Shown one piece after another: positions 3,254 to 35,785 of a stretch of DNA of 35,785 bases. This DNA is from a virus, in the IMG/VR virus record IMGVR_UViG_3300021964_000219, positions 1 to 35,785 of that record; one strand, 5' to 3'. The notes under the pieces were generated by a model, which had not been told where the DNA came from, did no database searches, and saw only the letters and a list, made by a program, of their open reading frames with translations. Position numbers and translations under genes: made by a program. The stretch's first letter is position 1; each line of letters starts with the position of its first letter.

Positions 3254-3260
3254 AAAAATT
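3220..3260 (+). repeat. Tandem near-repeat encoding an AT-hook twice, in two frames
   Basis: GGGCAGACCCAGAAAAAAT (3220-3238) and GGGAAGACCTAGAAAAATT (3242-3260) match at 16 of 19 bases with an offset of 22 bases. The first copy encodes G-R-P-R-K at the end of the zinc-ribbon protein. The second encodes M-G-R-P-R-K at the start of the sigma-like protein in the +1 frame. The TAG ending the first gene lies inside the second copy. Confidence 0.7.
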
Positions 3261-3938: not shown

Positions 3939-4984
3939 TGAAATTAGAGGAAGAACATAAAAAATTCATTGATGAGAATTTTCATAAAATTCCCGATTTA
4001 ATTGAATTAACTAGAGCAACTTTTAAGGATGGTACAATTGATGGTAGGTCTAAGCAAGGTAGAGCAGTTAGGGAGTATCTAGCGTCAAAAGATATTAAAT
4101 ACGGAACTACTAAAGTTGAAAAAGTAAAACCTATTGTTTTAACTGAAGAACAAAAAGATTTTATTAAACAATACTCCCAAGACGGAATGTCGAGCTTTCA
4201 AATTGCTCAATTGTTATTTTCAGAAACAGAAGTTAAAAAATTAGGTAGAGAACAACGAACTGTAGGCAGCTATTTAGATGTTTTAAAACAGAAACAAAAA
4301 GAAGAAAGGCGAGAAGACAAGAATACATATCGACCTCCTGAAACTTTTGCAGAATGTATTGATTTGGTTAATGCATATGCTAATCATGAATTTTCTGAAA
4401 AAGAGTTAAAGGTAGTGGAAAGAAAATCTTTAGAATCTGTTTTTAAATTTTTAAAATCTCCAAGATTTATTCAAATTATTAATACATATAATAAAAAAGA
4501 AGATCAGCAATTATTTGAAGCTGAATTTATAAGAGCTACATGGGACAAGCCAGATTTATCTGCAGATGAAATTAATTTATATGTTAATGTATGTGTTGAT
4601 TATATTAATTTAAAAAATATTCAAAATCACATGGAAAAGCTCAACCTGATGTTCGAAGAGGCCGACGAACAACAAGAGTTAACTGTAAGACTTTCAGAAT
4701 TATTAAAAACAAAAAGCGAAGAATACAATCAGTGCGAAAAGCGTCAAGAATCCCTTATCCAGAGACTTGCTGGGGACAGAGCTAAAAGGATCTCCCAAAG
4801 GCAAGATCAGAATGCATCTATACTATCTTTGGTGGAAAGCTTTCAAAACGAGGAGGAAAGAAAATTGATGGTTAAGATGGCTGAAATGCAAAAACAAGCA
4901 ATATCCGAGGAAGCTAATAAATTAGAATCCATGAATGAATGGAAGGCTAGAGTTCTAGGAATATCTAAAAACGATGCAATCTAA
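3938..4984 (+). CDS. HTH and coiled-coil protein, candidate small terminase subunit
   Basis: 348 aa, joined to the sigma-like gene by TAATG and overlapping the next gene by 11 bases. Residues about 1-50 and 68-115 look like two helix-turn-helix-type DNA-binding units (I-P-D-L-I-E-L-T-R-A-T-F and M-S-S-F-Q-I-A-Q-L-L-F). Residues about 135-225 are helical. About 225-335 are long charged helices (M-E-K-L-N-L-M-F-E-E-A-D, then Q/E/K-rich heptads), a probable coiled coil for oligomerisation. DNA-binding N-terminus, oligomerising C-terminus and a place upstream of the large terminase fit a small terminase, which selects the packaging site. It is larger than most small terminases, and I recognise no signature, so the role is inferred. 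Confidence 0.45.
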   Translation: MKLEEEHKKFIDENFHKIPDLIELTRATFKDGTIDGRSKQGRAVREYLASKDIKYGTTKVEKVKPIVLTEEQKDFIKQYSQDGMSSFQIAQLLFSETEVKKLGREQRTVGSYLDVLKQKQKEERREDKNTYRPPETFAECIDLVNAYANHEFSEKELKVVERKSLESVFKFLKSPRFIQIINTYNKKEDQQLFEAEFIRATWDKPDLSADEINLYVNVCVDYINLKNIQNHMEKLNLMFEEADEQQELTVRLSELLKTKSEEYNQCEKRQESLIQRLAGDRAKRISQRQDQNASILSLVESFQNEEERKLMVKMAEMQKQAISEEANKLESMNEWKARVLGISKNDAI

Positions 4985-5897
4985 ATTTAAATGTAAAATT
5001 TGTGATCAAGAATTTGACACAGAAAAAGGTCTGCATATTCATTTAAAGAAGCATAAAATAGATCTAGCTACATATTATACAACTTATTATCCAAGGTTAA
5101 ATTTATTAACAAAAGAACCCTTACCCTTTAAGAATAAAAAAGATTATTTTTCAAAAGATTTTACAACAATAAGTCAATTGATAAAATGGTGCGAAAAAGA
5201 AGATGAAGTTAAGGTTAAAAAATACATAACTGAAAAATTAAAAGCTAGGATTGAAGATAAAAAACTAAAAAGAGCCCCAAATCACTTAGAGATAAAAATA
5301 TCTAAATTACCACCAATAGATATTTATAAAAAAATATTTGGATCATATGGGAAAGCCTGTAAGACTCTAAACATAGAACCTTTATATGGATCGGGAATAG
5401 ATCCTGTTTTCTTGGATAAAAACTTTGATTGTTCTGACTTAAAAATATTAATTGATACTAGGGAGCAAAAACCTTTAAAGTTTAAAGTATCAGAAAGTTT
5501 AAAATTAGATTTTGGCGATTACACCGTTGGTGGCAAAGATTATAATTATACATATATAGACAGAAAATCAGAGCAAGACTTTAAAGGAACATTGTCTGGC
5601 GGATTTGAAAGATTTAAAAGAGAACTAGATAGAGTAAAAGAGTTTGAATCATATTTATTTATTGTTGTTGAAAGTGATTTAAAAAAATTATATAAAAACA
5701 ACCTTTTCGGCCCACATAAATCTAATTTAGAATTTGTGTATCACAATATGAGATTATTGACTCATGAATATGCGAATTATTGTCAATTTGTTTTTACTGG
5801 AAGTAGGAAACAATCAGAGTATATTATTCCTAGAATTTTAAAAATGGGAAAAAAATTGTGGAATGTAGATTTACAATATTATTTAGATAAAGAATAA
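4974..5897 (+). CDS. C2H2 zinc-finger ERCC4/XPF-type nuclease
   Basis: 307 aa. Residues 7-27 form a C2H2 finger (C7-x2-C10-x12-H23-x3-H27), likely binding DNA. Residues about 116-138 (I-Y-K-K-I-F-G-S-Y-G-K-A-C-K-T-L-N-I-E-P) resemble the small DNA-binding repeat seen with homing endonucleases. Residues 157-290 carry the ERCC4 nuclease signature: D161-T-R-E164, G181-D182-Y183, D196-R-K198-S and D202. The usual E-R-K is D-R-K here. ERCC4 enzymes (XPF, MUS81) cut branched DNA. Lying between the candidate small and the large terminase, it could trim recombination branches before packaging, the job of endonuclease VII in T4. The domain call is firm; the role is inferred. Confidence 0.75.
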   Translation: MQSKFKCKICDQEFDTEKGLHIHLKKHKIDLATYYTTYYPRLNLLTKEPLPFKNKKDYFSKDFTTISQLIKWCEKEDEVKVKKYITEKLKARIEDKKLKRAPNHLEIKISKLPPIDIYKKIFGSYGKACKTLNIEPLYGSGIDPVFLDKNFDCSDLKILIDTREQKPLKFKVSESLKLDFGDYTVGGKDYNYTYIDRKSEQDFKGTLSGGFERFKRELDRVKEFESYLFIVVESDLKKLYKNNLFGPHKSNLEFVYHNMRLLTHEYANYCQFVFTGSRKQSEYIIPRILKMGKKLWNVDLQYYLDKE

Positions 5898-13747: not shown

Positions 13748-14247
13748 TGAATCAGTTCGGAGAACTTGGTTACACTATATGGGATATTGAGTTTGGAGAT
13801 CATTCTTCAGCTTTAGAAAGAGAACGGAATGCTTTATTGATATCTGGATATCTCGAAGCTAATTTAGGTCAATTAAATACTTTAATTAATACTGACTTTA
13901 CATATAATGCTTCGGGAGATATGGTTGAGCCAGCTTTACAGCAAGAAGAAAAAGCTATCTTCACTCAATTGTACCTAAAGGACTACTTACAGAAACAGTC
14001 TAGAAATATATTAAGAAATGCCAGCAATACTTCCCCTATCACTGATAATCAAGATTGGAGTGAATTAAGAGAAGGAGACAGCTACATAAAGCGTAATGTA
14101 GCTTCTCCAGCTTCTAAAAACACATCAGCAAAATTATTACAGGAATTAGCTAAAGAAGCCAATGAAATCTTAACTAAGATGATTCATTCATATAATATGT
14201 ATGGATCAGTTCCTACTCAAATAGCAGGCAAAGATGCGGCCCTTTAA
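13747..14247 (+). CDS. Probable head-tail connector/adaptor protein
   Basis: 166 aa, starting in the TAATG junction. It is mostly helical: residues about 18-45 (S-A-L-E-R-E-R-N-A-L-L-I-S-G-Y-L-E-A-N-L-G-Q-L), 65-95 and 125-155. A helical bundle of this size after the capsid gene is typical of gp6-type connectors that extend the portal. I recognise no exact family. The segment D-W-S-E-L-R-E-G-D-S-Y-I-K-R and the helix A-K-L-L-Q-E-L-A-K-E-A-N-E-I-L-T-K are notable. It is the last plus-strand gene; its stop overlaps the stop of the opposing minus-strand gene. Confidence 0.5.
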   Translation: MNQFGELGYTIWDIEFGDHSSALERERNALLISGYLEANLGQLNTLINTDFTYNASGDMVEPALQQEEKAIFTQLYLKDYLQKQSRNILRNASNTSPITDNQDWSELREGDSYIKRNVASPASKNTSAKLLQELAKEANEILTKMIHSYNMYGSVPTQIAGKDAAL

Positions 14248-14612
14248 AAGTTATTAATATCTTCAGATTCTTTATGTTCTTTAAACTTTTGTTTTGCTAA
14301 ATTCATAAAATCTTTAGTTTTTGAAAAATCAACCTTAAATCCGTCGTAGGAAAAAGTCTGAAATGCAGACAATACATCAACTACATTATCTATCATATCT
14401 ATAGGTTCTATATTGTTTTCTTTACATAAAGCTTCCATTTGTTCATAAGTAATTTCGTTTTGGCTAGAATTTATATTATATAAATTTTTAGATACTTCAG
14501 AAGAAATGTCTGATTGAATTTTTTCGATAGCAGCTTTCATTTTGGGATCCTCTATATTTGACTTATAGTTAAGTAAGCCTTTAATAAATTCTTTTTGTTG
14601 ATATTTGTCCAT
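14244..14612 (-). CDS. Small hypothetical protein at the end of the tail operon
   Basis: 122 aa, not recognised. It is helical and charged: residues 1-50 (M-D-K-Y-Q-Q-K-E-F-I-K-G-L-L-N-Y), a middle acidic-hydrophobic part (I-D-M-I-D-N-V-V-D-V-L-S-A-F), and a basic C-terminal helix (M-N-L-A-K-Q-K-F-K-E-H-K). No cysteine pairs or membrane segments. It is the last gene of the leftward tail operon, eight bases after the fibre gene. TATAAT lies two bases before its ATG, too close to act as a normal promoter for this start unless the mRNA begins inside the gene. A fibre chaperone or assembly factor is conceivable from position, without direct support. Confidence 0.5.
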   Translation of the reverse strand: MDKYQQKEFIKGLLNYKSNIEDPKMKAAIEKIQSDISSEVSKNLYNINSSQNEITYEQMEALCKENNIEPIDMIDNVVDVLSAFQTFSYDGFKVDFSKTKDFMNLAKQKFKEHKESEDINNF

Positions 14613-17478: not shown

Positions 17479-20400
17479 TTAAACAGTAATATCGTGACCG
17501 TAGTACTCCCTTTCTTCTATATAAATACCATCTTTAGATGATGTGCTATTGTCAACTTGCTCATATTTATCTTCAATATATTGCTTTGCAATAATTTCAA
17601 ATTGCATCGGATTATTTTCTGATATTTTAACAATTTTATATGTTCTAGGTTTAATTTTATCAGTTGTATTATCGTCAGCTATCCAACTATAACCTTGTTT
17701 GATAGAAGCGTCCAGAGTAGAGTTGAGAGTAATTTCAAAACCATTTCTTGCCGTTATAGTATAGCTTTCAAATTGTTTATCTCTTTGAATTTCATCGCTA
17801 GACCATTTAGTGGAATCTTTTGATGGTGCTAGATTGGCAGCATTTGCTCCTACATTAGCTACAATTAAACGATAATACTTTCCGTCATTAACATCAAGAA
17901 CTATGTCTCCTAAAGTATAAGCCACATTAGCTCCGTCCCAATTATCGTGTTGTTGAACATTGGATTCAATAAGAATATCCGTAACATTACTTAATGCAGA
18001 TGCGGGAATATCAATTTCAACAGTGGTAGAGTTTATTACCCTAACTATTCTTCCTCCTGCATGTTTTGCAATTTTATTGTTATCCATGACTTCAATAACG
18101 TCTCCAATTCTTGCGTAAGATGCTATAAGTCCAGTTTTAAATTGAACAAGTTCTTTTTCTAATTGTTTAGTTAAAATTTTGTGCCATGCCAGCCTATGAG
18201 CTTCACCCCTTCTAGTAATACCTATACCTGCTATTTTTATGTGCTTATATCCATGCTCTTCAATACCTTCAGTATCTTCTACATATTCTGTTTTCTGTAA
18301 ATAATTATCTCGTTCATCTAAAAAGTCTACAGTAACAGCTGTAATTCTATCTGTTTCTGGGGTACTTGAATATGCAAATCCTTCTTCAGTTACATTTGCA
18401 TTATTAAATAGTAATGTTGATTGAATAGTCCCCCCTTCTTTCTTGGAGGAATCTACTTCTATATAAATTTTACCTCCCGTAAAGTTGATTGAAGAATTGT
18501 ATATATACATCAAATCTTTTATGTATTGATAAGCTTCAACTTCAGTATCTATATATAAGTTACACATATGACGCCTCTCGGTAGTTGCAGACCCCTCTAT
18601 TACAACATCAACTCTTTCATCACAGAATTGAGCAAATTCATAAAAAGACCATTTATCAATATTATCTTCATTAATATCATATTTACCTAACCCATATCTT
18701 CTATTAATTAATAAATCATATATAATCCATGCAGGATTACTTGTCCATTCTGAAGATGTAAACTGACCATTCCAAGTGCCAACATATGTTCCATTTTCAG
18801 CATTGTAATTACTTGGAATATCTAACAATCTTCCTTTCAGTAAATATTCTCTATTAGGTATATCAGCTTGATCTTTAGAATTTACTCTACATCCTATAAT
18901 TGCGGTATTGGGATAAGAAAAGAATCCTTCTACATATTCTGTAACGGCATGAACTGAGGCGTCTATCTTATACCTTGCTTCAGTAATGCCATTGACAACA
19001 GGATCCATCTCTCTGTTTAATCTATAAACCTTTACGATTCTGTTTTTATAATTATTATTAATAGATTTTGCTTTTGGTAAATTTTCAATTAATATATCTT
19101 TCACATATGGATTTGTAGCGCATCCATTAAATTCAATTACATCTTTTAATAAATCTTCGCCTTCTATCCCGTACTCTATCGCTAAAGATGTTTTGGCGGG
19201 CCAAATTTCTCCACTATTTTTTATAATTTCTCCAACCTTAAAACATAACCAAGGAACGTCGCTGCATTTTATTAAACTATTTGCAATTTCAGAAATTAAC
19301 CAACCTCCTACAGCTCCTATTAATGCTCCAAAAGCAGCTAAAATTGCTGCTTCTTTTGCAAGTTCTCCTGTCTTCATTGCAGTCCAACCTGTACCACCTA
19401 AATTATCAACTGTTGGAACCCCACCTGGTGCTCCACAGAAAGGAATAGGTAAAGTCATGCCATTTCCATAAGAACTCAAATATATTGGATCTGGTATAAG
19501 AGCCTTGGCAATTCCGTCGGCAATAAATTTACCCAACATTAGACCTAATACGGCTGCTAATAAAGGAATTAAATTTACATACAATGCACTTTCGTCGCCT
19601 TCATAAATATAATGTAATTCATTTAACCTAATAGATATTGAAATGTTGGATACATCAGGATTTTTAATTGTAAAAGAAAAATAGTAATCTTTTTCCCCAT
19701 CATTTCTTGGGCCAAAAAGAGGGTAATCAAAGGTGTGGGTGTATGATGGAATTTTAAATTCATCCGAAATAATTCTAGGTCTTGTTTCTGCAGTGAGTCT
19801 AGTGTTATCTAAAATATTGCTTTCCCCTATGCCATTTTTAGTGTGTCCAATACGCATGTCAAAATGGAACTTTGAAACATTAAATCTATCATCTCTATCA
19901 CGTATGGGAATATCATTTAAATAAATTGATCTGGCCCAAGCGTTAGGATCTAATGTAGGATCGTTTGTTCCTCGACCTGGCATTGCAGTTGGAAAACCTA
20001 CAGTTAATCCAATTCGATTATCTTTAGATGAATATCCCTTGGTAGTATGAGTTTGATTAATTGCAACTGATTGAAATGAACCGTTCGCTATTGTTACATC
20101 AAATGCTGGATATATAATTGAACTTGCTGCTAGTGGATCTAACATTAATTGATTCCAAACGAAACCTTTGCCAATTTGTTTAATATAAAATTTTAGAATT
20201 TTACCCTCGAATCCAGCTTGATTTAAATAATTGTCATCAACTTTTAAAATTAAATCTTGTTTTGGAAAATGTATATTTGGAAAAGTTTTATTTACATCGT
20301 TAATTGCCGTAATAATAGATTGATTTTGAGCTATAATATATATTATTTGATTAGCCCTAACATTAGGAGTTGAAGATCCAATATCACGCTCAGCTATAAC

Positions 20401-23400
20401 TAAATCATCTTTATCTAGTAAATTATCAAAACCTATACCCCCATCAATAATTGATACTTTTGAAATTGCTCCAAGATTATTAGTGGTAACCCTTGCCTTA
20501 AATTGATAATAAGCTTGATTAGCGCTAGAAACTACATTTTGTTTCGTGCTACTTATTCCGTGAATATAAAAAACATCATCAGGCTTGTAACCTCTGTTAT
20601 TAGTTTGAGTATCGATTAAATTAAGAGCTGTTACAGTAAAAGTGTCCTGATAAATATCTTTTGACAAAGTCGTTCCGTTTACATCAGAATCCTTACCAGT
20701 ATAACCATTTCCATTATTAAACATAGCTATACCTATAGGTCTGCCTGTATGTAAAAATGAATGAGAAACATTAGAGGTTAGATTTGTTAATGCTCCTATT
20801 TTAAAGTTGCCATTAGATAAAGGTATAAATTCGGAAGAAGTTATAACTTGAGCTTCAGTTGTGGGAGTGTTAATATGATCGGGTACTTCGCTAACGCTTG
20901 TTATTCTAGTTTGTGGAGAAGCTTGATTAAAAGTTCCTATATTTATGCTTTCTTGAAATACTCCAGCTCCACGTGTATAATTCACAAGAGATATTTCGTT
21001 TAGTCTGATATGATCTTCCCAACTAGGCTCACCTTTGAAACTTTTTCGTCTTGTTGCATTTGTAAAAAGCCTGCCATTAACAATGTCTAGACTTGCAGTT
21101 TCGTAATCATTACTTGGATCAATTTTACAAGCTATAGCTAAATCTGTGTAAGATGTAGATGGACTTCCGTTATTTATAATAAAGGGAATTCTTCTACCGT
21201 TAGCATCGCTTGGAGTAGGCATAATAGGAGTGTAGGAATTAGATAATCTATCGTAAACTGGATTATCAGGAACTCTCAATAATACTATATCTGCTATAGT
21301 CCCTTGCGGGCTAACTCTAGCTACCGCATCTATTTTCGTGGGAGCCCATTCATATCTATCAAATATTTGAGTATTTGCAATTGTATATAACCTTCGTAAT
21401 ACAAAGACAGTTACTCTTGGATAAATATATGGAAAATAATAACCCTTAGGAACACTAGAATCATCGATGTCAATACTACCATTGTCTTGAATATTAACAC
21501 TGGTAAAATTATCATTATTTCCCAAAGTTACATAGGAAGGTAAATTATTTGAACCATTTCCTCCTTGCACTTTAACACCTGGAGCTGTTGCCCCACCAGA
21601 CCCAACTCCATACTTTATGTACAAGCCTCCCCCGTGTAATACTTCACCTCCTTGTGGGCCAAACATAGCTGATGGAGTTGTAAAAGTGTTGAAGTCTACT
21701 CCAGCATTCCTAAAAGCAGTTACAACTTCATTTGCAAAAGTTCTATTTAATAATAAATTAGAAAGAGGCATTCCATTAGTCCATGCACCATTTGTTCTAC
21801 TGGTAGGATTAAAAATATCTATTGGATTAGATGTATTGGCTGGGCTCGTTGGTTGAATATAGTATGTCGTACCAAAAATACGAGCTTGGCTTCGCACTCC
21901 ACAATTACCACAAACTCTAGGATTTAAAAAAACTCTATTTAAATTTAAATAATCACGCAAAGTAAAGCTGACTGTTTCATTTCGAGTGCCCCCAGTACCA
22001 TTACAAAAAGGTGGATTTGTTCTACATCGATATGTAAATACTCTAACAGTTATAGTTGTATTTAGATTGTTTTGAACTTCAGTACCACCGTCATAATAAA
22101 TTCTAGCCGACTCATCCCATGTTTTATTTGTACCAAAAATAGTGCTGTCTGTTCTGTTTACATATTCTCTGTAAAAAACTTCCGTAAAAGTCGGATCATT
22201 TGGAGATGAATATCTAAGTGATCCATCTAATGCTATTGCTTGAGAAATTCTGTCATTAAAACTTGCTTTTTGAATATCAACATAATATTCAAATTTATCA
22301 TTATCTGGGGACACAGTGAGTTCTATTGGTTCGGAGCCATAACTTGAACCAATAGAAAACACATTACGCTGAAAAGTATTTTGATCTAAAATATCCCTAT
22401 CTGCCTCCAAGGTAGATAACTGATATACTCCAGTCGTACCAGCATCATCTGTAACTTCTGAAGTTAAATATTTTGAGTCTATAAAATTTGGAATAGTATT
22501 ATCTGAATTTGTGTTCGGATGTATGGCTCCATCTCCAGAGTTTAAAAGAAACAACCCATTTAATGACACAAATTTAGGTTCAGTTGGGGTAGGTTGATTA
22601 TGAATATGGTAAACAGTTCTTGGGTTATTAAATGAAGGATTTTGAAAGTCAATGGATGCAATTCTTGCACTATTAGTTTCTATTGGATCATCAGCCTTAA
22701 TAGAAATTCCGTTATTTACCGTTCCGTCTCCACTAATTAAATAAGTACCATCTCTATAAAAACTACCCCCCCGAACAATGCCCACACTATTGTCATTGTC
22801 TAAAGAAATTATCCTATTATTTGTGAAGTCATATTTAACATCTTCAAGAGTAGCTAAAGACTCTGGAGGGGCAACACTTTGAGCGTCATACGGATAATTT
22901 ATAAATCCATTATCTCTTGCTGTTCCAGTAATTGGATTCGCTAAACCTGCAATAGGGCCTTCAGATAAAACTTCTAAACTTTTATAAACTCCTATAGATT
23001 CTAATTTTTGATAACTCCCTCTCGCTCCAACTAACAAAGGTTTATTTGAATCTCTCCAACCTAGAACCGCATCTTGAATTTTTGTAGGGGGAGAATTACT
23101 CTGAATTATTCTTTTGATGCAAAATTCTTCTGCAGATTTAGGCCTCATATTGTAGTCAATATGACCTTCTTTAGGAAAAATGAAAGGTCTAGCCTGTTTA
23201 TTATATCGAGCAAAATCCCACCATCCAGCATTAGCTCGAACATATTTAGGGGAACCCTCTGACGGGCCAAATTCTTTTAATTCATTAGAGCCTTTATCAT
23301 TATTTACAAAACTACTATTAAATGCCTCATTTTCATGTGATGCATCATATTTTTTTTCTATCTCACCCTGTCTATTGATGATTGCTTTTAATGAAAGCCT

Positions 23401-24066
23401 TTTAGTTGGGTCTGATTCATTATATCCAGAAAATTGATCTGAGGTTCCATCGCGCCAATCAGTAATGTCAGAAGGATCAATAAAAGAATAGTCTCCACCA
23501 TTTGCTATTTTAGACAGTCTTGTTCTTCGGGGAAAACCTTCATAGATTCTAGCATTATCGTAATCATAATCGTAATTTTGAATACTTGAATGTATTAATT
23601 TAGATCCTACTCTAAGTTGGCCATAAACAACTGGGATCGGCGTCCCTTGCTCAGCTCGATTTTCATTATCGGAATATATAAAAGAATTGGTTGTAATAAT
23701 TTCATATTCTGGAGTGCCATCATCTTGCACTTCTGTAGCATTTGAAAGTTTTTGCATTAAGTAACCCAATCCAAGATTTAAGCCAAAAGTCATTAAGTTT
23801 CCACCTAAAGAACCTTCCACAGAAGGCATTATGTGGTATGTTGACTCCCTAAGTGGCAGGTGGTAGCAATATTGTTCATATTTTAAATTAAAATTATCAA
23901 CAAAAATAAATTGAACACCACTCAGTAGTTTATTTAAATAATATTTTCTAAAACCAGAAAATTGAGAAGATAATGCATTAATAGTTTCCTGCATAGTTTT
24001 AGTGTCAAGTTTAACTTCTTTGCAAAACTTGTCAGCCATATCTCCATGTAAAATGAAAGTCTTCAT
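17479..24066 (-). CDS. J: gpI-gpJ fusion: tail tip (host specificity) protein with large insert
   Basis: 2195 aa, about twice lambda J. Residues 1-115 match the gpI assembly-protein pattern (M-K-T-F-I-L-H-G-D-M-A-D-K-F ... Y-H-I-M-P-S-V-E-G, then a Gly-rich hydrophobic stretch). Residues 138-149 read A-E-Q-G-T-P-I-P-V-V-Y-G, usual in this family. L-S-E-G-P-I-A-G-L near 365 matches the start of lambda J. About 400-1490 have no recognised domain. Hydrophobic segments lie near 1495-1515 and 1570-1590. About 1620-2195 is the J core: Y-P-N-T-A-I-I-G, L-K-G-R-L-L-D-I-P-S-N-Y-N, N-P-A-W-I-I-Y-D-L-L-I-N-R-R-Y-G-L-G, R-R-G-E-A-H-R. A chitin-binding-like module sits near 2040-2090. J forms the tail tip and contacts the host. 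It overlaps K by ATGA. Confidence 0.87.
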   Translation of the reverse strand: MKTFILHGDMADKFCKEVKLDTKTMQETINALSSQFSGFRKYYLNKLLSGVQFIFVDNFNLKYEQYCYHLPLRESTYHIMPSVEGSLGGNLMTFGLNLGLGYLMQKLSNATEVQDDGTPEYEIITTNSFIYSDNENRAEQGTPIPVVYGQLRVGSKLIHSSIQNYDYDYDNARIYEGFPRRTRLSKIANGGDYSFIDPSDITDWRDGTSDQFSGYNESDPTKRLSLKAIINRQGEIEKKYDASHENEAFNSSFVNNDKGSNELKEFGPSEGSPKYVRANAGWWDFARYNKQARPFIFPKEGHIDYNMRPKSAEEFCIKRIIQSNSPPTKIQDAVLGWRDSNKPLLVGARGSYQKLESIGVYKSLEVLSEGPIAGLANPITGTARDNGFINYPYDAQSVAPPESLATLEDVKYDFTNNRIISLDNDNSVGIVRGGSFYRDGTYLISGDGTVNNGISIKADDPIETNSARIASIDFQNPSFNNPRTVYHIHNQPTPTEPKFVSLNGLFLLNSGDGAIHPNTNSDNTIPNFIDSKYLTSEVTDDAGTTGVYQLSTLEADRDILDQNTFQRNVFSIGSSYGSEPIELTVSPDNDKFEYYVDIQKASFNDRISQAIALDGSLRYSSPNDPTFTEVFYREYVNRTDSTIFGTNKTWDESARIYYDGGTEVQNNLNTTITVRVFTYRCRTNPPFCNGTGGTRNETVSFTLRDYLNLNRVFLNPRVCGNCGVRSQARIFGTTYYIQPTSPANTSNPIDIFNPTSRTNGAWTNGMPLSNLLLNRTFANEVVTAFRNAGVDFNTFTTPSAMFGPQGGEVLHGGGLYIKYGVGSGGATAPGVKVQGGNGSNNLPSYVTLGNNDNFTSVNIQDNGSIDIDDSSVPKGYYFPYIYPRVTVFVLRRLYTIANTQIFDRYEWAPTKIDAVARVSPQGTIADIVLLRVPDNPVYDRLSNSYTPIMPTPSDANGRRIPFIINNGSPSTSYTDLAIACKIDPSNDYETASLDIVNGRLFTNATRRKSFKGEPSWEDHIRLNEISLVNYTRGAGVFQESINIGTFNQASPQTRITSVSEVPDHINTPTTEAQVITSSEFIPLSNGNFKIGALTNLTSNVSHSFLHTGRPIGIAMFNNGNGYTGKDSDVNGTTLSKDIYQDTFTVTALNLIDTQTNNRGYKPDDVFYIHGISSTKQNVVSSANQAYYQFKARVTTNNLGAISKVSIIDGGIGFDNLLDKDDLVIAERDIGSSTPNVRANQIIYIIAQNQSIITAINDVNKTFPNIHFPKQDLILKVDDNYLNQAGFEGKILKFYIKQIGKGFVWNQLMLDPLAASSIIYPAFDVTIANGSFQSVAINQTHTTKGYSSKDNRIGLTVGFPTAMPGRGTNDPTLDPNAWARSIYLNDIPIRDRDDRFNVSKFHFDMRIGHTKNGIGESNILDNTRLTAETRPRIISDEFKIPSYTHTFDYPLFGPRNDGEKDYYFSFTIKNPDVSNISISIRLNELHYIYEGDESALYVNLIPLLAAVLGLMLGKFIADGIAKALIPDPIYLSSYGNGMTLPIPFCGAPGGVPTVDNLGGTGWTAMKTGELAKEAAILAAFGALIGAVGGWLISEIANSLIKCSDVPWLCFKVGEIIKNSGEIWPAKTSLAIEYGIEGEDLLKDVIEFNGCATNPYVKDILIENLPKAKSINNNYKNRIVKVYRLNREMDPVVNGITEARYKIDASVHAVTEYVEGFFSYPNTAIIGCRVNSKDQADIPNREYLLKGRLLDIPSNYNAENGTYVGTWNGQFTSSEWTSNPAWIIYDLLINRRYGLGKYDINEDNIDKWSFYEFAQFCDERVDVVIEGSATTERRHMCNLYIDTEVEAYQYIKDLMYIYNSSINFTGGKIYIEVDSSKKEGGTIQSTLLFNNANVTEEGFAYSSTPETDRITAVTVDFLDERDNYLQKTEYVEDTEGIEEHGYKHIKIAGIGITRRGEAHRLAWHKILTKQLEKELVQFKTGLIASYARIGDVIEVMDNNKIAKHAGGRIVRVINSTTVEIDIPASALSNVTDILIESNVQQHDNWDGANVAYTLGDIVLDVNDGKYYRLIVANVGANAANLAPSKDSTKWSSDEIQRDKQFESYTITARNGFEITLNSTLDASIKQGYSWIADDNTTDKIKPRTYKIVKISENNPMQFEIIAKQYIEDKYEQVDNSTSSKDGIYIEEREYYGHDITV
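17795..17950 (-). other. CBM5/12-like module near the C-terminus of the I-J fusion
   Basis: N-W-D-G-A-N-V-A-Y-T-L-G-D-I-V ... K-Y-Y-R-L ... P-S-K-D-S-T-K-W resembles the chitin-binding module in gpL in order and spacing of Trp, Gly-Asp, Tyr and the final Trp. It lies after the gpJ core. Confidence 0.5.
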
Positions 24067-28406: not shown

Positions 28407-29224
28407 TTTTTATTTATGTACCCAATATAACTTAAAGCAACATTAAGCATATTATTATTACTGGAACTCATAGATTGTTCTATTAATCTAGCTTTTTTGA
28501 TTTCAAATGTTTCAATAATAGAAGAATTAATTGGATTTTTAAATGTTAAAGTTATATTTTGTTGTTTAGGCTTAACTAAATATTCTCTGATTTGATTAAT
28601 TTCAAAGTCATGCACTTCCAAGGAAAAACTAGCTTGCTGAGTCATTGGAAATTTTCTTTGAACTTCTACTGGAAATGGAGAGCCAATTTGATAAATTGGA
28701 TCTCTATCTATTCTCATTGTATAAGAAAAATCTACTACTCTATTACTTTGGTATCCCGTTGTGTTGAGAGCGATAGATCCCTGATTGGGTATTTGTATGT
28801 CTGGGTGAGGATTTGAGCCAGATGCATTAATTCCAGAACCTATATCACCATAAACAACTATGGATGCTTTTGATTTTGGAATTGTTCCAATAGACGCAGA
28901 AACACTATATTCAGTTAAATAACCACTATTAAAACCAAAACTTTTGTTAGAGACGCTAGAAAAATCATTGAAATAATTTATACTTCCACTAATTGGATTA
29001 TCTCCAGTATAATTAAGAAATGGCTCTTCTCCTATATAATATTTATTTACCTCAAAATTACCAACTAAAGCTCCTTGTCTAACAGGATACTTGTGCCCTT
29101 TTCCAATAATGTTGATTGGATTTTCTGATATACTGTAACCTCCATTTAAATCAGTAACTCCTGAAACTTGTATGCCAGATAAATAAAACTGTTGATCATA
29201 AGGAGCTATTGCATTCTTAACCAC
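28403..29224 (-). CDS. Tail protein, smaller member of a paralogous pair
   Basis: 273 aa. It has a GTG start chosen because AGGAGG lies exactly eight bases upstream, inside the end of the tape-measure gene, which it overlaps by eight bases. The sequence is beta-rich. It shares V-D-F-S-Y-T-M-R-I-D-R-D-P-I-Y and G-K-G-H-K-Y-P-V with the next gene's equivalent segments. The C-terminal part (about 215-273: E-I-N-Q-I-R-E-Y-L-V ... I-T-L-T-F-K-N-P) has the look of a tail-tube or distal-tail type domain. No named family recognised. It is the first gene after the tape measure, the place of distal tail proteins in many siphophages. Confidence 0.6.
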   Translation of the reverse strand: MVKNAIAPYDQQFYLSGIQVSGVTDLNGGYSISENPINIIGKGHKYPVRQGALVGNFEVNKYYIGEEPFLNYTGDNPISGSINYFNDFSSVSNKSFGFNSGYLTEYSVSASIGTIPKSKASIVVYGDIGSGINASGSNPHPDIQIPNQGSIALNTTGYQSNRVVDFSYTMRIDRDPIYQIGSPFPVEVQRKFPMTQQASFSLEVHDFEINQIREYLVKPKQQNITLTFKNPINSSIIETFEIKKARLIEQSMSSSNNNMLNVALSYIGYINKK

Positions 29225-32200
29225 GCAACATTCCTCCTACTCTTTTTTCTTGACTAATTACTCCAATAACCGCATCTCTTAATCTGCTACCTAATTCTTG
29301 AGGGTAACCATCTCCACCTTCTGTAGAAGTTCCTCCAGATGAAACATTAATGTTAACTGTAATATTACTTGAAGAGCTTGTGTTATTTGTTTCTGAGTTA
29401 TTATTGGTTGTTGTAGTAGAGCTATTACCCTGAGGATCAACTATACCTCCCTGATTCATTTTCATGGAATTTAATTGATCAAAAAAGCCTGGGAATTGTT
29501 TTTCCACACTATTAACGCTAGAAGCCTTAATAACATATTCTCCCCTGTCAAGCATTATTGGCCCAACTTTATCAATACCTGCTGGACCATGCACTTTCCC
29601 TCCTCCGCTCATTCCAATTAAACCTCCTTGATTGCGGAACTGAAATTTATCAAGATCATACATAGATAGATTATCATTTGTATAATAATCATCATTCATG
29701 CTTTCATGAATAGTGCCAGCCCTCATTTCTTGAAAAGTATTGTTGTAATCCGTGGGCTTGTTTAAATAGTCATATGTTTCCCCTATTCTAGCTGTATCTT
29801 GAGAGCTCATAATTCGAGAACCATCTTCCCTGAAGTTAGAAGAGTAATTGTAAGTGTTAGCAGTACTTTCGTCAATTTCTGCGTTCATTCTATTTAAATC
29901 ATTAGTTAGCCTCTGACCAGGCGTAGTGCTTGCATTGTACATCATACGTTGAGCTATCGAATTACCCAAGTACATCATACCCATGCTACCAATGCTATTA
30001 ACAATACCCTGAAGCATGTTTGCTCTTTCCTGAACTTTTTGATTTTTATAATTTACATCGTATTGATACTTAGATAATAAATAGTTTCCATAATCTTTTG
30101 AATATGTATCCGTAGCCCTATACCTAGCGCTCATTTGTCTACCCGTAGGGTCTAAGTCTAAAGTAGATCTAGTATTTAATCTTGTGGGTTTAGTTGGTGC
30201 CGTAGGAGGAGTGTAAGGAGCAGGCTCTCTGTCTTCATATTGAGCAATAGCTGATCCAGCTAGATAACCTCCACCTTGAGCGATTTTTCCATATCCAGAT
30301 TCTTGATATCCAAAATGACGACTAACAAAGCCGCCATCTCTAAACTTAACTAATCCTCCCATAAATTTCATGACACTGTTAGTAAAATCGTTGATTAGTT
30401 GACCATTAACAGTACTTCTTTCGTTTTGAGAAATTCGATTATCATCTAAATTTCTTTTCTTTAAATAACTTTCAATTGATCCACCCTCTTTTAATCCAAC
30501 AATTCCACCTTCGTTATAAGTTGCATTATTTTGACTTCCATGACTATCAACAAGAGTTTCTTCATTAGAGTTTTGTCTTCTTAAAAAGTTTTCTATTAAT
30601 CTAGAGTCTTTTGATTGAACTATTCCACCATTATTATAAGTGGCATTATTTTGACTTCCATAAACATCAAAATCTTCAACGTCGTTAGGTTTATTAAATA
30701 AATCCTCTAAAGATCCAGTTTCATTTATTTTATCTAAATTACTTCTACCAAGTCTATCAACAATTTTTTTCCTAACTACATACTCACCAGAAGTTAACAT
30801 TGCTGGAACAGCTCCAACAGATCCACCTACAGCATATTTAGAAACAATACCCCCTGTTTTATATGTGGCATTATTTGAGCTTCCGCCACCCGAACCACCA
30901 TACAGGTTAACTTGATTTAAACCTGTAACTTCACCAACTCCAGCAATTAATTGATTAACCGCTCTATCTAAAAGCGCATCATGAATTTTAGAGACTATTC
31001 CATGTACAAACTTCAAGGCTGCATCACCTATACTCTTTGTGCTATCACCGATATCTTTAATAAAATCTTTAAGACCATCCCTTAGAGAATCAAATGATAC
31101 ATTAGCTAGGGTTTTATTAAACTCAACTAGTTCTACATTAACTTGAGCAAGGCGAACTGCAATTTGATCTTGAAATCCAGTGCTTGTGCCTCTATTGAAA
31201 TTCATGTCTCTAGCTTGTTCAGCAACAGAAAGTCCTGTGGTAGCCTTCATATTCTGATTGCCTTCTCTTGCAAATATTCTAGCTTTATTTGCGGTAGTAT
31301 TAAATCTTTCGGTATCATCTAGTCTACTATTACCAACTTCACTTTGTGCCTTGGTCATATAAAATCCACCAGCAGCTCTTCTAGTTACCAATTTTCTTCT
31401 TTCATCTAAATCAGCTTCAAGATTACCCATATTAATACCGATTCTTTTTAATTGTATTTCTGCTAATTTTTCATCGTTAGCAAGCAACGCCTTTTTAGCA
31501 ATCAAACTTCTTTCTTCGGCGTCCAGACTTTTCATCTGGCTATTGTAAGACTCCCTCATAAGTTCCATTCGGCCCTCTAAAGTTCTTAAAGCTTCTGTTT
31601 CTACGCTTAATCTAGCAAGCTGTATACTGTTTGTATTATTGGCATTAGTTAAATCTTGAAGAGCTGTAGCTCTAGTTTGGGCGGCATTCTCTCTAACTCT
31701 ATTTAAGGACTCTTGGTATTCGCTAGCTACGCCTTCTTTTATGCCTATTGTTTTTTGGTCTATTGTTATTAATTTATCAGTTAAATCTTTTTGACTTTTG
31801 ACGGCATCTATTTGAATTTTTTCTCTTTTATTTTGCTCGTCAACTTCTCTTAATAACCTATTAGATTGCTCTTTAGTGAGAGTTATATTTCCAAGTTCAA
31901 TTTGCTTCTTTAGGTATGCCAATTTGTCAACTTCAGCAAAATTTCCATTCATCGCTTTTAAAATTGCAGCCATGACATGGTATTGAGTTAGGGCTCCTTC
32001 GGCTTCCTTTAATGTTTGCGTTAAAACTTGCTTCATGCGGTTTCCGACTGGCCCTGAATTTTCAGAAAGAGATGATATCGATTGTTCTTTCAAACCCTTC
32101 TCTTCGTCAAATAAATTTCCAGAGATCTGTGGCCCACCCCTGTTTAATGCATCAGCAATAGTCTTACTGAAAGCTCTATTATATTGATTTCTTATACTTT

Positions 32201-35200
32201 CTTCTTTAGCATCCAGAGATTCTCTTTTTTGTCTATGTGAATCTAAATTATCATTTAAAGCTTTTTGAGCCTTAGTTTCTTCGCCAAATAGTTGCTCTAA
32301 TTCACTAGCTGATTCGCGCTGTTTTCTTCTTAATGCGAGATAGCCTTCCATTTCTAGTGCGGCAGCATCGTCTAATAATTGCTGTCTGTTTATTGCATTT
32401 AGGCTTAACTCTAAAAGATTTTTTCCTTCATTTATAGCATCGCGCATTGCTTCAGCATCTTTATTTGCTTCATCAAATGTCTTTCCAAATTCTCCGACTT
32501 CATCGCTGATCTTATGAAGCATTTCTTTAAATTCTACTAGAGTTATATTCTCTTTTTGCTTAATGAATTCAGAAGCCATTGCTTTAACGCTATCACTAAG
32601 ATTACTCTCAGCTATAATGTTGAGAAATTCGTCTTCTTCTAAAAATTTTGTTCCTCCAGACATCCCTTGAATAGCTTTAGCTGCACTAACGGCATTTTTA
32701 TCTTCTGAATATAGTAAACCTTGGCTCATCTGATTAAGATATGCAGTTAATTCTTTGATGTTAGCTTGAGCTTCTCTAACATTTCTTGTTTCTCCAAATA
32801 ATCCAGCAGCTGCTCCAGTGACAGATCTAGCTCTATCAATAGCATTAGCTTTCTCTCCGCCAAGTCCGAAAATACCTTCTGAAGTGCCCAAACCTTTTAC
32901 GTAGCTTTGAATGTTAGAAATCGCTGACATTGCTTCTTGTGCATCTAATGTTTTTTGTTGAAGTAATTCAAGTCCATCACTTGTTCCACTCATCATTTGA
33001 CGCATTTCTTCGCTAGAGACATTAATATCTCCAGCTAACTTTTGAACTTGTTTAGCTAAATTTTGATTAGATTCTTGAATTGTTTTTTGTAAAGAAATTT
33101 CTTTCATTCTACCTTCAAATGTTCCAGCCATAGCTGATTGTTCTAATTTTCTTAGGTCTTCTTGAGCTTGTGAATTTGTTTGAGCTGCCTGTAAGGCTCC
33201 AGTAAAATTTTCAACTCTTTGAGAGGCAGCATTAAAACTTTTTTCCATTTTTTCAGCACTAGTTGCAACAAGATTAAAAAATCCATCAAAATTTTCTTTA
33301 AGAGAGTTGAAGACTGGAATGGCGAAGGCTGCAATTGCTGCGGCTGGACCCGCAGCCCCCAGCAACATTCCGCCCGCTGACATAGCCGCACCTTTAAAAC
33401 CTCCAGTTGCCTTTCCTTTTTCTCTTAAGTTCGCTCCAGATTGCCTACCGAGCCCAGCAACAAGGCTTGCTTGTGTAGCTCCCATTACTACAGCATTTAC
33501 AGTACTAAGAACTTTTCCAATAGTACCCTCTACTTCCGTTAGTCCTCCGCCAAATGCATAAGTTAAAGTAGTTAATCCTATAAGCTTGCCTGAAATTCCA
33601 TCTACTGCCATTCCAGTATTTTGCATTTCATTTGCCAAATCCTTTTCTGATTTAAGTCTTTTATCGATTGATGCCTGCAAGCCAGTATTAGTTATTGGTA
33701 TATTGCGACCAACATTATAATTAGGAACATAACCTGCAGAATATGTTGCGTTGTTCTGGCTTCCATGTTCAGTTGGGTCCATGCCCATAGCTATAGCTCT
33801 ATTAACCCCCTGATAACCGCCCGCTGGTTCATCTTTAGTGTTAGCAACCAAAAGGCCCATAGGATTTTTTTGATTTTTTAAACGACTATCTTGATCTACA
33901 TAAATTTTACCCCCACTCATTGCAGAGCGTTCTCTATCAATTGCATCTGATAATGGATCAGCAAAATTAGGAATGAAATTAGCAAAATTAGGAATGAAAT
34001 AATTTTTCCCCGCTTTAAGTAATTGTAGTTGATCCCAAATTTCATTTGCCTGTGCATTTTTCTTACTAATAATTGGGCCTGTTTCTATTCTAGGTTTTCC
34101 TGATTGAGCTATCGCCTTCACCTCTGCCATCTTGTCTTGCCACATCTTCAAGAGCCTTTGTCTGTCTGACATTTTATCTCTACTAGAAAGATTTCTTCTG
34201 TTGAGATTAATAAAATTAGGAATAAAACCTGAATAAAGACCTAGAGATAGAGCGTCCTCTAATGTATTACCTTGACCTCTTAAGCTTTGAACTGTGCGTA
34301 AAGCTCTATCTTGCTTTGTCTGAAGCACATCGGCCATATCTACACCTTGAGCTTCTAAAAATCTTTCGACACTTCTATCGGAAGCTTGGTATACACTTTT
34401 TGCTAAAACATTACCTGGTGCAAATCCAGTTTTAGCTTCAATTGGAATTCTACCTTTAGATACAAAATCTACGACACCCATGTGATCGCCTGTGCCACCA
34501 ACTTTTACATACTTGTTTCCAACTTTTTTATACTTTGAAGTATCTGTTCTTTGATAAGCGCTTCTACCAATTTTATTTTTTTTCCATGCTTCATCTAGTT
34601 TTTGTTCATAAATCGTACCTCTAACGTCATTACTAACACCCCCTTTAGGTACTTTTGTGGCTGCATATCTTCTATTTTGTTTAGGCTTAATTCTGGGATC
34701 TCGGTCAGCAAAATAAAAAGGTCGAGATAAATGAGAAATACCCAAGCGCTCCAAAGATTGAAACATTGCAGCTAACCCTGTAGCTCTTGAACTGACATCA
34801 GCTAGTGGAGCTGTTTCTTGGTGCCATCCTGTTTTATCTCCAATGCTCTGTAAAAACATTTTTGCTTTGGGCAAGAAAAGAGTTCCGCCTACTTTTTGAG
34901 GAAAAGTAGTAAATCTAGTTGGCCCAGCAAAATTAGGAATAAATCCTTGATTGTATGTTTTATTATTTTGACTACCTGTCAACCATGCCATTGTATCACT
35001 CATTGGAGCGTTACTTTTTCTAGCTATCGAACTACTAGTTTCCCCAATAACAGGGCCATCAGCCCCTTCTCCAGACATATAATCTCCTAACCTTTTTAAA
35101 GCTAAGGTTATTTCGTTCATTTGAATTTTATGCCGACCTATGGTAACAGTTCCACCAGGATAATCTTTTTCTTTAGTTGCTGAAAGATATCTATTAGATG

Positions 35201-35785
35201 CAAAAGAAATTTGATTTCTATCCCTAGCATTAATTCTAATTCCTCTTTTAGTTAATGCTTTTGTAATAGCTTGAGTAACTTGCCTTTCCGTATATTGTTC
35301 TTTTGCGAAATTAGGAAGAAAGCCCTTGAAATATGTTTCGTTATTCTGGCTACCCTTGTGAGGTCTTTCATACGGATCAAATCCGTTTTGCTGAAGGAAT
35401 GATTTCCTGTAAGCCTTACCTTCTACACTAGCTTCTGCAGGTTCAGCTTTGGAAAAGTTCGGAATAAGCCCCCTAGAGTATGTTTCGTTATTCTTACTAC
35501 CCTGCTTATCTTCATAAGGGTTAAAACCATGTTGAGAAATAAAATTATTTTTATACTCCTGACCAGCGCCACTTAATGCAGGTGGCATTATAGCTGGTTG
35601 AGAAAATCCAGAAAAATATTTTACAGCTTCATTTTTATTATAAATAGCTCTCCCTACAGAAGGGATATTTATGGAAGCAACACTGCCAGCGACATAACCA
35701 CCTTTTAATGCTCCCGCTTTTTCTTTCGCTTCTTGTAATGGAGTTACATTAGATGCATAATTAGGAATAAATCCTGAAGAGTATG
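29217..35785 (-). CDS. H: Partial giant tape-measure protein with PNFA-type repeats and embedded nuclease-like domain
   Basis: The frame continues beyond the Met codon at 35588 to the window edge: bases 35589-35785 read on as Y-S-S-G-F-I-P-N-Y-A and more, so the true start lies outside. At least 2188 residues are visible. The upstream third (33700-35785) carries G-S-Q-N-N-x-T-Y-x-x-G-F-I-P-N-F-A units between compact domains, one nuclease-like. Hydrophobic segments at 33310-33590 and long helices (31000-33300) fit a tape measure. Near the end come G-G-I-V repeats and two ruler-type motifs (V-P-A-M-L-T-S-G-E-Y-V-V and V-G-P-I-M-L-D-R-G-E-Y-V-I). The final stretch N-I-T-V-N-I-N-V ... Q-E-K-R-V-G-G-M-L is usual for these proteins. 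It sets tail length and passes into the host with DNA. Major tail protein and chaperone genes are not in view. Confidence 0.85.
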   Translation of the reverse strand, partial: YSSGFIPNYASNVTPLQEAKEKAGALKGGYVAGSVASINIPSVGRAIYNKNEAVKYFSGFSQPAIMPPALSGAGQEYKNNFISQHGFNPYEDKQGSKNNETYSRGLIPNFSKAEPAEASVEGKAYRKSFLQQNGFDPYERPHKGSQNNETYFKGFLPNFAKEQYTERQVTQAITKALTKRGIRINARDRNQISFASNRYLSATKEKDYPGGTVTIGRHKIQMNEITLALKRLGDYMSGEGADGPVIGETSSSIARKSNAPMSDTMAWLTGSQNNKTYNQGFIPNFAGPTRFTTFPQKVGGTLFLPKAKMFLQSIGDKTGWHQETAPLADVSSRATGLAAMFQSLERLGISHLSRPFYFADRDPRIKPKQNRRYAATKVPKGGVSNDVRGTIYEQKLDEAWKKNKIGRSAYQRTDTSKYKKVGNKYVKVGGTGDHMGVVDFVSKGRIPIEAKTGFAPGNVLAKSVYQASDRSVERFLEAQGVDMADVLQTKQDRALRTVQSLRGQGNTLEDALSLGLYSGFIPNFINLNRRNLSSRDKMSDRQRLLKMWQDKMAEVKAIAQSGKPRIETGPIISKKNAQANEIWDQLQLLKAGKNYFIPNFANFIPNFADPLSDAIDRERSAMSGGKIYVDQDSRLKNQKNPMGLLVANTKDEPAGGYQGVNRAIAMGMDPTEHGSQNNATYSAGYVPNYNVGRNIPITNTGLQASIDKRLKSEKDLANEMQNTGMAVDGISGKLIGLTTLTYAFGGGLTEVEGTIGKVLSTVNAVVMGATQASLVAGLGRQSGANLREKGKATGGFKGAAMSAGGMLLGAAGPAAAIAAFAIPVFNSLKENFDGFFNLVATSAEKMEKSFNAASQRVENFTGALQAAQTNSQAQEDLRKLEQSAMAGTFEGRMKEISLQKTIQESNQNLAKQVQKLAGDINVSSEEMRQMMSGTSDGLELLQQKTLDAQEAMSAISNIQSYVKGLGTSEGIFGLGGEKANAIDRARSVTGAAAGLFGETRNVREAQANIKELTAYLNQMSQGLLYSEDKNAVSAAKAIQGMSGGTKFLEEDEFLNIIAESNLSDSVKAMASEFIKQKENITLVEFKEMLHKISDEVGEFGKTFDEANKDAEAMRDAINEGKNLLELSLNAINRQQLLDDAAALEMEGYLALRRKQRESASELEQLFGEETKAQKALNDNLDSHRQKRESLDAKEESIRNQYNRAFSKTIADALNRGGPQISGNLFDEEKGLKEQSISSLSENSGPVGNRMKQVLTQTLKEAEGALTQYHVMAAILKAMNGNFAEVDKLAYLKKQIELGNITLTKEQSNRLLREVDEQNKREKIQIDAVKSQKDLTDKLITIDQKTIGIKEGVASEYQESLNRVRENAAQTRATALQDLTNANNTNSIQLARLSVETEALRTLEGRMELMRESYNSQMKSLDAEERSLIAKKALLANDEKLAEIQLKRIGINMGNLEADLDERRKLVTRRAAGGFYMTKAQSEVGNSRLDDTERFNTTANKARIFAREGNQNMKATTGLSVAEQARDMNFNRGTSTGFQDQIAVRLAQVNVELVEFNKTLANVSFDSLRDGLKDFIKDIGDSTKSIGDAALKFVHGIVSKIHDALLDRAVNQLIAGVGEVTGLNQVNLYGGSGGGSSNNATYKTGGIVSKYAVGGSVGAVPAMLTSGEYVVRKKIVDRLGRSNLDKINETGSLEDLFNKPNDVEDFDVYGSQNNATYNNGGIVQSKDSRLIENFLRRQNSNEETLVDSHGSQNNATYNEGGIVGLKEGGSIESYLKKRNLDDNRISQNERSTVNGQLINDFTNSVMKFMGGLVKFRDGGFVSRHFGYQESGYGKIAQGGGYLAGSAIAQYEDREPAPYTPPTAPTKPTRLNTRSTLDLDPTGRQMSARYRATDTYSKDYGNYLLSKYQYDVNYKNQKVQERANMLQGIVNSIGSMGMMYLGNSIAQRMMYNASTTPGQRLTNDLNRMNAEIDESTANTYNYSSNFREDGSRIMSSQDTARIGETYDYLNKPTDYNNTFQEMRAGTIHESMNDDYYTNDNLSMYDLDKFQFRNQGGLIGMSGGGKVHGPAGIDKVGPIMLDRGEYVIKASSVNSVEKQFPGFFDQLNSMKMNQGGIVDPQGNSSTTTTNNNSETNNTSSSSNITVNINVSSGGTSTEGGDGYPQELGSRLRDAVIGVISQEKRVGGMLRG
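29233..29238 (-). promoter_or_regulatory. Shine-Dalgarno deciding the GTG start at 29224
   Basis: AGGAGG on the minus strand, eight bases before GTG, within the last codons of the tape-measure gene. It is the strongest ribosome site seen on this strand. Confidence 0.75.
30501..30892 (-). repeat. Second repeat set: NNATY stem with GGIV ending
   Basis: Three units at about 30851-30892, 30621-30659 and 30501-30539 encode G-S-[QS]-N-N-A-T-Y-x-x-G-G-I-V. They share the stem of the PNFA-type units but end in the glycine-rich G-G-I-V. The last two are nearly identical at the base level and about 120 bases apart. Confidence 0.85.
33714..35785 (-). repeat. PNFA-type repeat units in tape-measure N-terminal region
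   Basis: Full units are at 35304-35354 (S-Q-N-N-E-T-Y-F-K-G-F-L-P-N-F-A), 34926-34976 (S-Q-N-N-K-T-Y-N-Q-G-F-I-P-N-F-A) and 33714-33764 (S-Q-N-N-A-T-Y-S-A-G-Y-V-P-N-Y-N). One at about 35453-35503 reads S-K-N-N-E-T-Y-S-R-G-L-I-P-N-F-S, and a truncated one lies at the right edge. Short forms lacking S-Q-N-N are at about 34205-34245 (Y-S-G-F-I-P-N-F) and twice in tandem at 33959-34000 (F-I-P-N-F-A-N-F-I-P-N-F-A). The two units nearest the edge also share a preceding block x-F-L/I-x-Q-x-G-F-D/N-P-Y-E. Confidence 0.9.
34315..34650 (-). other. PD-(D/E)XK nuclease-like domain inside the tape-measure protein
   Basis: The order is a helix with Y-E-Q-K-L-D-E-A-W, then G-T-G-D-H-M-G-V-V-D-F-V, then R-I-P-I-E-A-K-T-G. 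The D codon is at 34467-34469, E at 34437-34439 and K at 34431-34433, giving the D-x9-E-x-K arrangement of this nuclease superfamily. A helix (A-K-S-V-Y-Q-A-S-D-R-S-V-E-R-F) follows. The segment is flanked by PNFA-type units on both sides. Fold assignment by eye only. Confidence 0.5.

Follow-up and report, generated by a model that had tools for sequence, protein, structure and literature searches.

A 35.8-kb virus contig (IMG/VR record IMGVR_UViG_3300021964_000219), analysed over positions 1-35,785 and here called the window, encodes a tape-measure protein in which unrelated modules are strung together between copies of one short peptide, which we call the joint. The joints are cassette borders, and the modules between them form an array whose members are swapped among related phages. 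It is probable, judging from sequence comparisons, that this tape measure has an exchangeable array of cargo built into it and that the array is injected as effectors.

The tape-measure open reading frame (ORF) is a 2188-codon frame at 29217-35783 on the minus strand, with its 5' end open at the window edge. A series of at least seven full or partial units with a P-N-F-A/S/Y core had been predicted at 33714-35785 from the letters of the sequence, and it was recovered as eight joints of the form G/Y/N-[FLY]-[IVL]-P-N-[FY]-x at residues 4, 105, 154, 280, 519, 595, 602 and 684, two of them in tandem, which run on the minus strand from nt 35754-35774 down to 33714-33734. Seven copies of the strict core [FY][ILV]PN[FY] were counted within the first 760 residues, while shuffles of that stretch gave a mean of 0.0055 and a maximum of 1, which rules out chance repeats as the origin of the joints; a six-frame search of the window returned the same seven hits and no others. 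The 17-residue unit originally proposed, GSQNNxTYxxGFIPNFA, does not represent the general unit, since the element conserved across 362 contexts is [AS]-x-G-[FY]-[IV]-P-N-[FY]-A, with a sharp right border and near-random sequence after it. The residue two before the joint glycine is small (A in 54% and S in 32%). The GS.NN.TY leader, found at four of the eight joints, also stands ahead of three C-terminal GG-I-V motifs (residues 1634, 1709 and 1749); it is a linker habit of the window's lineage, outside the general unit, and its sharing suggests a common linker for PNFA joints and GG-I-V motifs.

The ORF has the position of a tape-measure gene in a siphophage tail operon, upstream of the tail-tip genes: lambda M-, L-, K- and I/J-like genes follow it on the same strand, and the K-like protein has NlpC and JAB matches. 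The ORF itself had no matches in PHROGs or Pfam, as expected if the core is missing from the window, and homology to the tape-measure core was therefore established through orthologues. Full-length orthologues (L241-L245; loci of relatives are numbered with L) were recruited by a profile search with win4, one of the window's cargo modules. Three of them (L244, L245 and L241) start with a canonical tape-measure core, and the cores of L018, L099, L083, L245 and L241 match many tape-measure PHROGs, with best E values of 1e-39 to 5e-52. The gene after the window ORF is 72% identical to the gene after the L245 tape-measure gene, and the region of residues 691-2188 has a weak match to a Gordonia phage tape-measure protein. 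The first joints of L245 (residue 554) and L244 (residue 558) both align with joint 1 of the window. Given that the matching joint in L245 is the first of that protein and follows its tape-measure core, the window most likely holds the entire array and the ruler part, minus about 550 residues of core. The original prediction was thus right in calling the protein a tape measure and wrong in placing the array at its N-terminus, as full-length relatives have about 550 residues of core beyond the window; the series, which had been expected to continue past the window edge, probably does not extend far.

Cassette exchange at the joints

Two samples of IMG/VR loci, which share some contigs, were compared. 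The joint-selected sample consisted of the matches listed for a joint DNA pattern and contained at least 111 ORFs of at least 300 codons, whereas the core-selected sample was obtained by searching with the tape-measure core alone, independently of the joint, and comprised the best 80 of at least 572 loci. When 107 joint-selected ORFs from the matches listed were cut at their joints, 348 inter-joint modules were obtained, falling into 76 families (35 with at least two members) and 75 distinct arrangements. In the most frequent cargo family, 15 kinds of neighbour occur on the left side and 20 on the right. Of the points where protein homology between ORFs stops, 71% lie no more than 10 residues from a joint, compared with 16% at random, and DNA similarity of at least 80% typically begins at joint nt 0 to -2 and stops at +17 to +20. 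In L085 and L099, for example, an initial 1.9 kb at 89% identity gives way to an unrelated module, after which similarity resumes in the following one. Both sequences keep the joint where homology breaks, which places the crossover at or inside it; the drop of third-position identity within the joint in swapped pairs is consistent with a crossover there.

The window's close relatives differ mainly in their modules. L244 and L245 have nearly the same core and ruler part, with arrays of 1256 and 715 aa, and L244 carries an in-frame 507-bp tandem copy of a cargo module plus joint with two mismatches (4705-5720, plus strand), possibly a very recent duplication. The module win4 recurs in L086, L004 and L241-L246; win3, which precedes win4 in the window, follows it in L086 (win3 homologue at residues 1498-1597), was also read in L244 and L245 and was found in L295 and L329. 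The proposal of a swappable array with fixed joints is therefore supported by families that recur in many orders and neighbourhoods and by homology that breaks at joints. One continuous fold with conserved segments between the units would have been the contrary outcome; across relatives the opposite was found, the module content varying between joints, and the breaks together with the varied arrangements rule such a fold out. Slippage of a coding tandem repeat is likewise ruled out, as the modules are unrelated in sequence.

Joint-bearing tape measures appear, from these sequence searches, to represent a widespread group of uncultured phages. In the core-selected sample, joints were detected in 76 of the 80 proteins, with 3-11 each and 423 in total compared with 5 in shuffled sequences, and the first joint lies about 145 residues past the core. 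The terminal module M2 was present in 72 of these 80 proteins and in 110 of 122 joint-selected ORFs from the matches listed. Among the four exceptions, L271 and L279 have variant joints (EVPNFGF and NLPNFALP), L325 is truncated, and L314 has the same core without PNFA joints, showing instead AGGYMN/AGGHMP-like glycine-rich borders around cargo of similar kinds by eye. These borders are perhaps an alternative joint; the L314 cargo includes HExxH-, ART- and ParB-like stretches. Array queries against 50,697 cultured-phage records gave no match, and the two cultured siphophage tape measures examined among those with a homologous core (such as Lysinibacillus LC76P1 and Pseudomonas PMBT3) have no joints. 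Single-protein scans and the exact leader-plus-joint DNA pattern returned no relatives of the window, whereas the joint pattern alone returned many. A GTDB scan turned up little beyond isolated hits in genes that seem unrelated. Its one clear case was a phage-like contig, L137, with a joint-bearing 1320-aa ORF on a small contig of a proteobacterial metagenome-assembled genome, which may be a host hint or a stray phage contig.

Cargo modules and their possible delivery

A recognised nuclease module is present in 54 of the 80 core-selected proteins, and the win4 family in 24. In one nuclease family (family 0, 65 members), the positions that pass the conservation threshold are G..FE, D, F, G, [DE]xK and a K further on, a PD-(D/E)XK signature. 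All 11 members of the win4 family (family 4) have an invariant upstream E, D, ExK and subsequent K, so that win4 carries the catalytic D...(D/E)xK pattern with its accessory E and K. An SNase family (L245, L241, L004 and L085) retains D, D, R, D, E and R in all six members, and the L245 module matches solved thermonuclease structures (E 1e-4); a HAD family keeps DWDGT. GNAT and HIGH nucleotidyltransferase modules were recognised by Pfam, and P-loop modules by a weak match. That these modules keep their catalytic residues while diverging elsewhere argues for active cargo enzymes and against inert spacers.

Few modules are named by Pfam, PHROGs or PADLOC, which fits fast-evolving cargo. Calls of ART-, ParB- and peptidase-like modules were made by eye and are leads, with a weak Pfam match for ParB; a 'kinase-like' label was dropped after PDB searches for kinase-like and nucleotidyltransferase modules proved weak. 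Polyvalent proteins, a known class of multidomain phage proteins, are expected to have their domains separated by an embedded peptidase; in the arrays, HExxH-like motifs were seen by eye in a few cases (L061 and L314) and in none of the window's modules. L061 (428-1939, minus strand) encodes GNAT (Pfam), HExxH (LAHELFHNVY) and HAD-like (VYDWDGTIIP) motifs consecutively. M2 is predicted to be a compact helix-strand-strand-helix domain with a predicted local distance difference test score (pLDDT) of about 92; sequence and fold searches with it gave no significant match.

The joint fits best as a short linear docking motif or a processing site. Joints of one gene share 59% of their codons, compared with 53% expected from that gene's usage; because the codons are nearly free while the peptide is conserved, this comparison shows that selection acts on the peptide more than on the DNA, and a role of the joint purely as a DNA site was rejected. 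In predicted models the joints are unstructured, both beside the compact M2 (pLDDT about 50-70) and where they flank win4. Such disorder makes a staple folded within a single chain, one of the functions originally suggested, less likely, and leaves the other two, docking and cleavage, unseparated.

The order of the protein suggests how the array could be delivered. A core of about 400 aa is followed by a hydrophobic stretch, the first joint and spacer, one to about nine joint-bounded modules, M2, the last joint, a second hydrophobic stretch and a long helical-looking ruler part. Counting as hydrophobic a 19-residue stretch above threshold, we found such a segment shortly before the array in 61 of 80 proteins; of the 93 proteins that could be tested on the far side of the array, 52 have one close behind it. 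Within 67,049 residues of arrays there are only 2. Known tape-measure proteins are carried in the tail lumen and ejected at infection, and the array-bearing tape measure would behave in the same way. Its two hydrophobic stretches would enter the inner membrane, exposing the soluble array between them inside the cell, most usefully in the cytoplasm, where its enzymes could act early in host takeover, counter-defence or the exclusion of rivals. Contact of tape-measure proteins with the inner membrane during DNA entry has precedent in lambda gpH, which is labelled by an inner-membrane ManZ fusion (PMC13190303). With lower confidence, the joint may be a docking motif bound by a tail partner (the tube, an assembly chaperone or M2) that keeps each module threaded or inactive in the lumen, and its short shared sequence may also permit in-frame cassette exchange by recombination.

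Several points weigh against an injected cargo array. We infer delivery of the payload from tape-measure biology only, and nuclease cargo made in the phage's own host poses an unexplained problem of self-damage. By our threshold the hydrophobic flank is missing in a quarter of the proteins before the array and in nearly half after it. The structure model of win4 is weak (pLDDT 64) with no significant Foldseek match, and win4 has no PDB or Pfam sequence match, so its assignment to PD-(D/E)XK rests on conserved residues. The third codon positions in joints agree slightly above codon usage (0.59 vs 0.53), which leaves room for a DNA-level role.

Among the alternatives, a tentative place is held by processing, in which a protease (a K-like NlpC/JAB protein of the tail tip, a prohead protease or one supplied by the host) would cut the array at the joints into free effectors during tail maturation or entry. 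The sharp border of the joint, the small residue two before its glycine, the near-random sequence after it and its predicted lack of structure all suit a cleavage site, a K-like protein with NlpC and JAB matches is encoded in the same tail operon, and polyvalent proteins have been argued to separate on deployment (PMC5512222). However, seven contiguous conserved residues, including an invariant P and N, exceed what most cleavage sites need, and no protease has been linked to the joint. To our knowledge, the motif resembles no cleavage rule, which also counts against processing. It is unlikely that the joints are mainly recombination landmarks, that is, short repeated DNA that drives exchange and has no protein function. 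Such landmarks would account for the DNA homology that stops at joints, the third-position identity that drops inside them in swapped pairs and the slight excess of synonymous agreement, but joint codons vary almost as freely as those in other parts of these genes, whereas the peptide shows strong conservation between divergent phages and is kept in 76 of the 80 core-selected proteins.

We give an equally small chance to the view that the modules are spacers, structural or of the ruler, which determine the length of the tail and in which enzyme folds serve as inert blocks. The protein is a tape measure, its modules are tolerated in many orders and many of them have no recognised enzyme signature; yet no positions of the PD-(D/E)XK families are better conserved than the catalytic residues, the SNase and HAD families retain theirs as well, and if modules counted towards length, the arrays of L244 and L245, on nearly the same core and ruler, would change the tail greatly. 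Least probable of all is that the apparent swaps are assembly chimeras or misaligned fast-evolving segments of metagenomic contigs. Every array does come from uncultured contigs, and a previous survey cautioned that mosaicism in tape measures can be artefactual (PMC10684548), but in dozens of contig pairs the breaks coincide with joints almost to the nucleotide, one family alone has the many left and right neighbours counted above, and the reading frames are open throughout.

The tape-measure ORF and its neighbourhood

Features of the tape-measure ORF in the window, in protein order
Feature	Position (nt)	Strand	Basis or remark
Tape-measure ORF, 5' truncated	29217-35783	-	2188 aa visible; core-bearing orthologues, lambda-type tail genes
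Joint 1, GFIPNYA, residue 4, first of the array	35754..35774	-	aligns with first joints of L245 and L244
Conserved spacer module, residues 11-104, ~75-aa family 2, 'YN..E.VK.F.GM.QPAI.PP..S.AG..Y...F...HGF.PY'	35472..35753	-	
Joint 2, GLIPNFS	35451..35471	-	
Incomplete second copy of the spacer end (G..YRKSFLQQNGFDPY), carrying a GSQNNETY leader	35325..35450	-	sequence
Joint 3, GFLPNFA	35304..35324	-	
Cargo module win3, residues 161-279, mobile, no assigned function	34947..35303	-	homologues in other arrays
Joint 4, GFIPNFA	34926..34946	-	
Cargo module win4, residues 287-518, predicted PD-(D/E)XK nuclease; D439, E449-x-K451	34230..34925	-	conserved residues
Joint 5, GFIPNFI	34209..34229	-	
Small module, residues 526-594, family 31, common to L250	34002..34208	-	
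Tandem joints 6a/6b, YFIPNFANFIPNFA	33960..34001	-	
Terminal module M2, residues 609-683, usually last in array	33735..33959	-	recurrence; predicted compact fold
Joint 7, GYVPNYN, array end	33714..33734	-	
Hydrophobic segment after the array, residues 807-825, candidate membrane segment	33309..33365	-	
Remaining tape-measure part, residues 691-2188: hydrophobic stretch, long helical-looking region, C-terminal GG-I-V repeats	29220..33713	-	

Elsewhere in the tail operon, a 2195-aa central tail protein (17479-24066, minus strand) combines a lambda I-like start, below the cut-off, with a Phage-tail_3 domain and is an apparent I/J fusion. The plus-strand head genes and the minus-strand tail genes converge at 14244-14250, an arrangement that we judge unusual for a siphophage structural block. 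Two plus-strand ORFs were read by eye: a 307-aa ORF (4974-5897) that starts like a zinc finger and contains an ERCC4/XPF-like nuclease motif (LIDTREQKPLKF..GDYTVGG..YIDRKS), and, upstream of the terminase, a 232-aa ORF (3240-3938) that resembles a sigma-factor-type protein.

Relation to known systems and significance

No description of the joint or the array was found in the open-access papers searched. Polymorphic toxins of the CDI/Rhs kind, with VENN-type borders, join an exchangeable toxin domain to a fixed delivery backbone behind a short fixed border motif, and in this they resemble the array; they carry one C-terminal toxin with an immunity gene, whereas the array has many internal cassettes with two-sided borders. 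The closest known kind is the polyvalent proteins of phages and conjugative elements, for which entry into the host alongside the DNA, and separation on deployment, have been proposed (Iyer et al. 2017, PMC5512222). Like the array, which is a polypeptide of multiple effector and enzyme domains shuffled between relatives, they are large multidomain phage proteins with shuffled domains of these kinds (PMC5512222). The text of that paper makes no mention of tape measures, whereas the cargo of the array sits in a tape measure between its core and ruler part, its modules punctuated by one fixed peptide joint. Sle1/Tme proteins of contractile injection systems are likewise derived from tape measures, loaded in a tail-like particle and equipped with an exchangeable variable functional domain (PMC13277306); they differ in belonging to bacterial contractile particles and in having a C-terminal functional domain, with no joint-bounded array described (PMC13277306), while the array occurs in phages with lambda-type tail genes, as internal series of up to about nine modules. 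A survey of phage domain mosaicism detected a sequence-level signal of shuffling in tape-measure proteins and confirmed no genuine recent case (PMC10684548). The joint-bounded swaps look like the recent tape-measure cases that this survey could not confirm, and the array supplies apparent recent domain mosaicism in these proteins.

We favour, with somewhat less confidence than the injected array itself, a broader view in which the tape measure is a cassette-loaded injection platform in widespread uncultured phages. The common joint would let varied soluble enzyme modules be loaded, cross the envelope and be released or displayed at the inner membrane, and lineages could rapidly re-equip the first protein that they deliver. 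The phage group concerned comprises at least 572 candidate IMG/VR loci, with no cultured member found. If true, the loading and ejection of tail-lumen proteins would become testable, the joint would be a naturally occurring border where new domains can enter phage tail proteins in frame, and the arrays would form a catalogue of enzymes selected for the first moments of infection, with counter-defence and host takeover as their probable roles. Should the payload be delivered, the tape measure would be at once a ruler, a DNA conduit and the carrier of an exchangeable early-infection arsenal.
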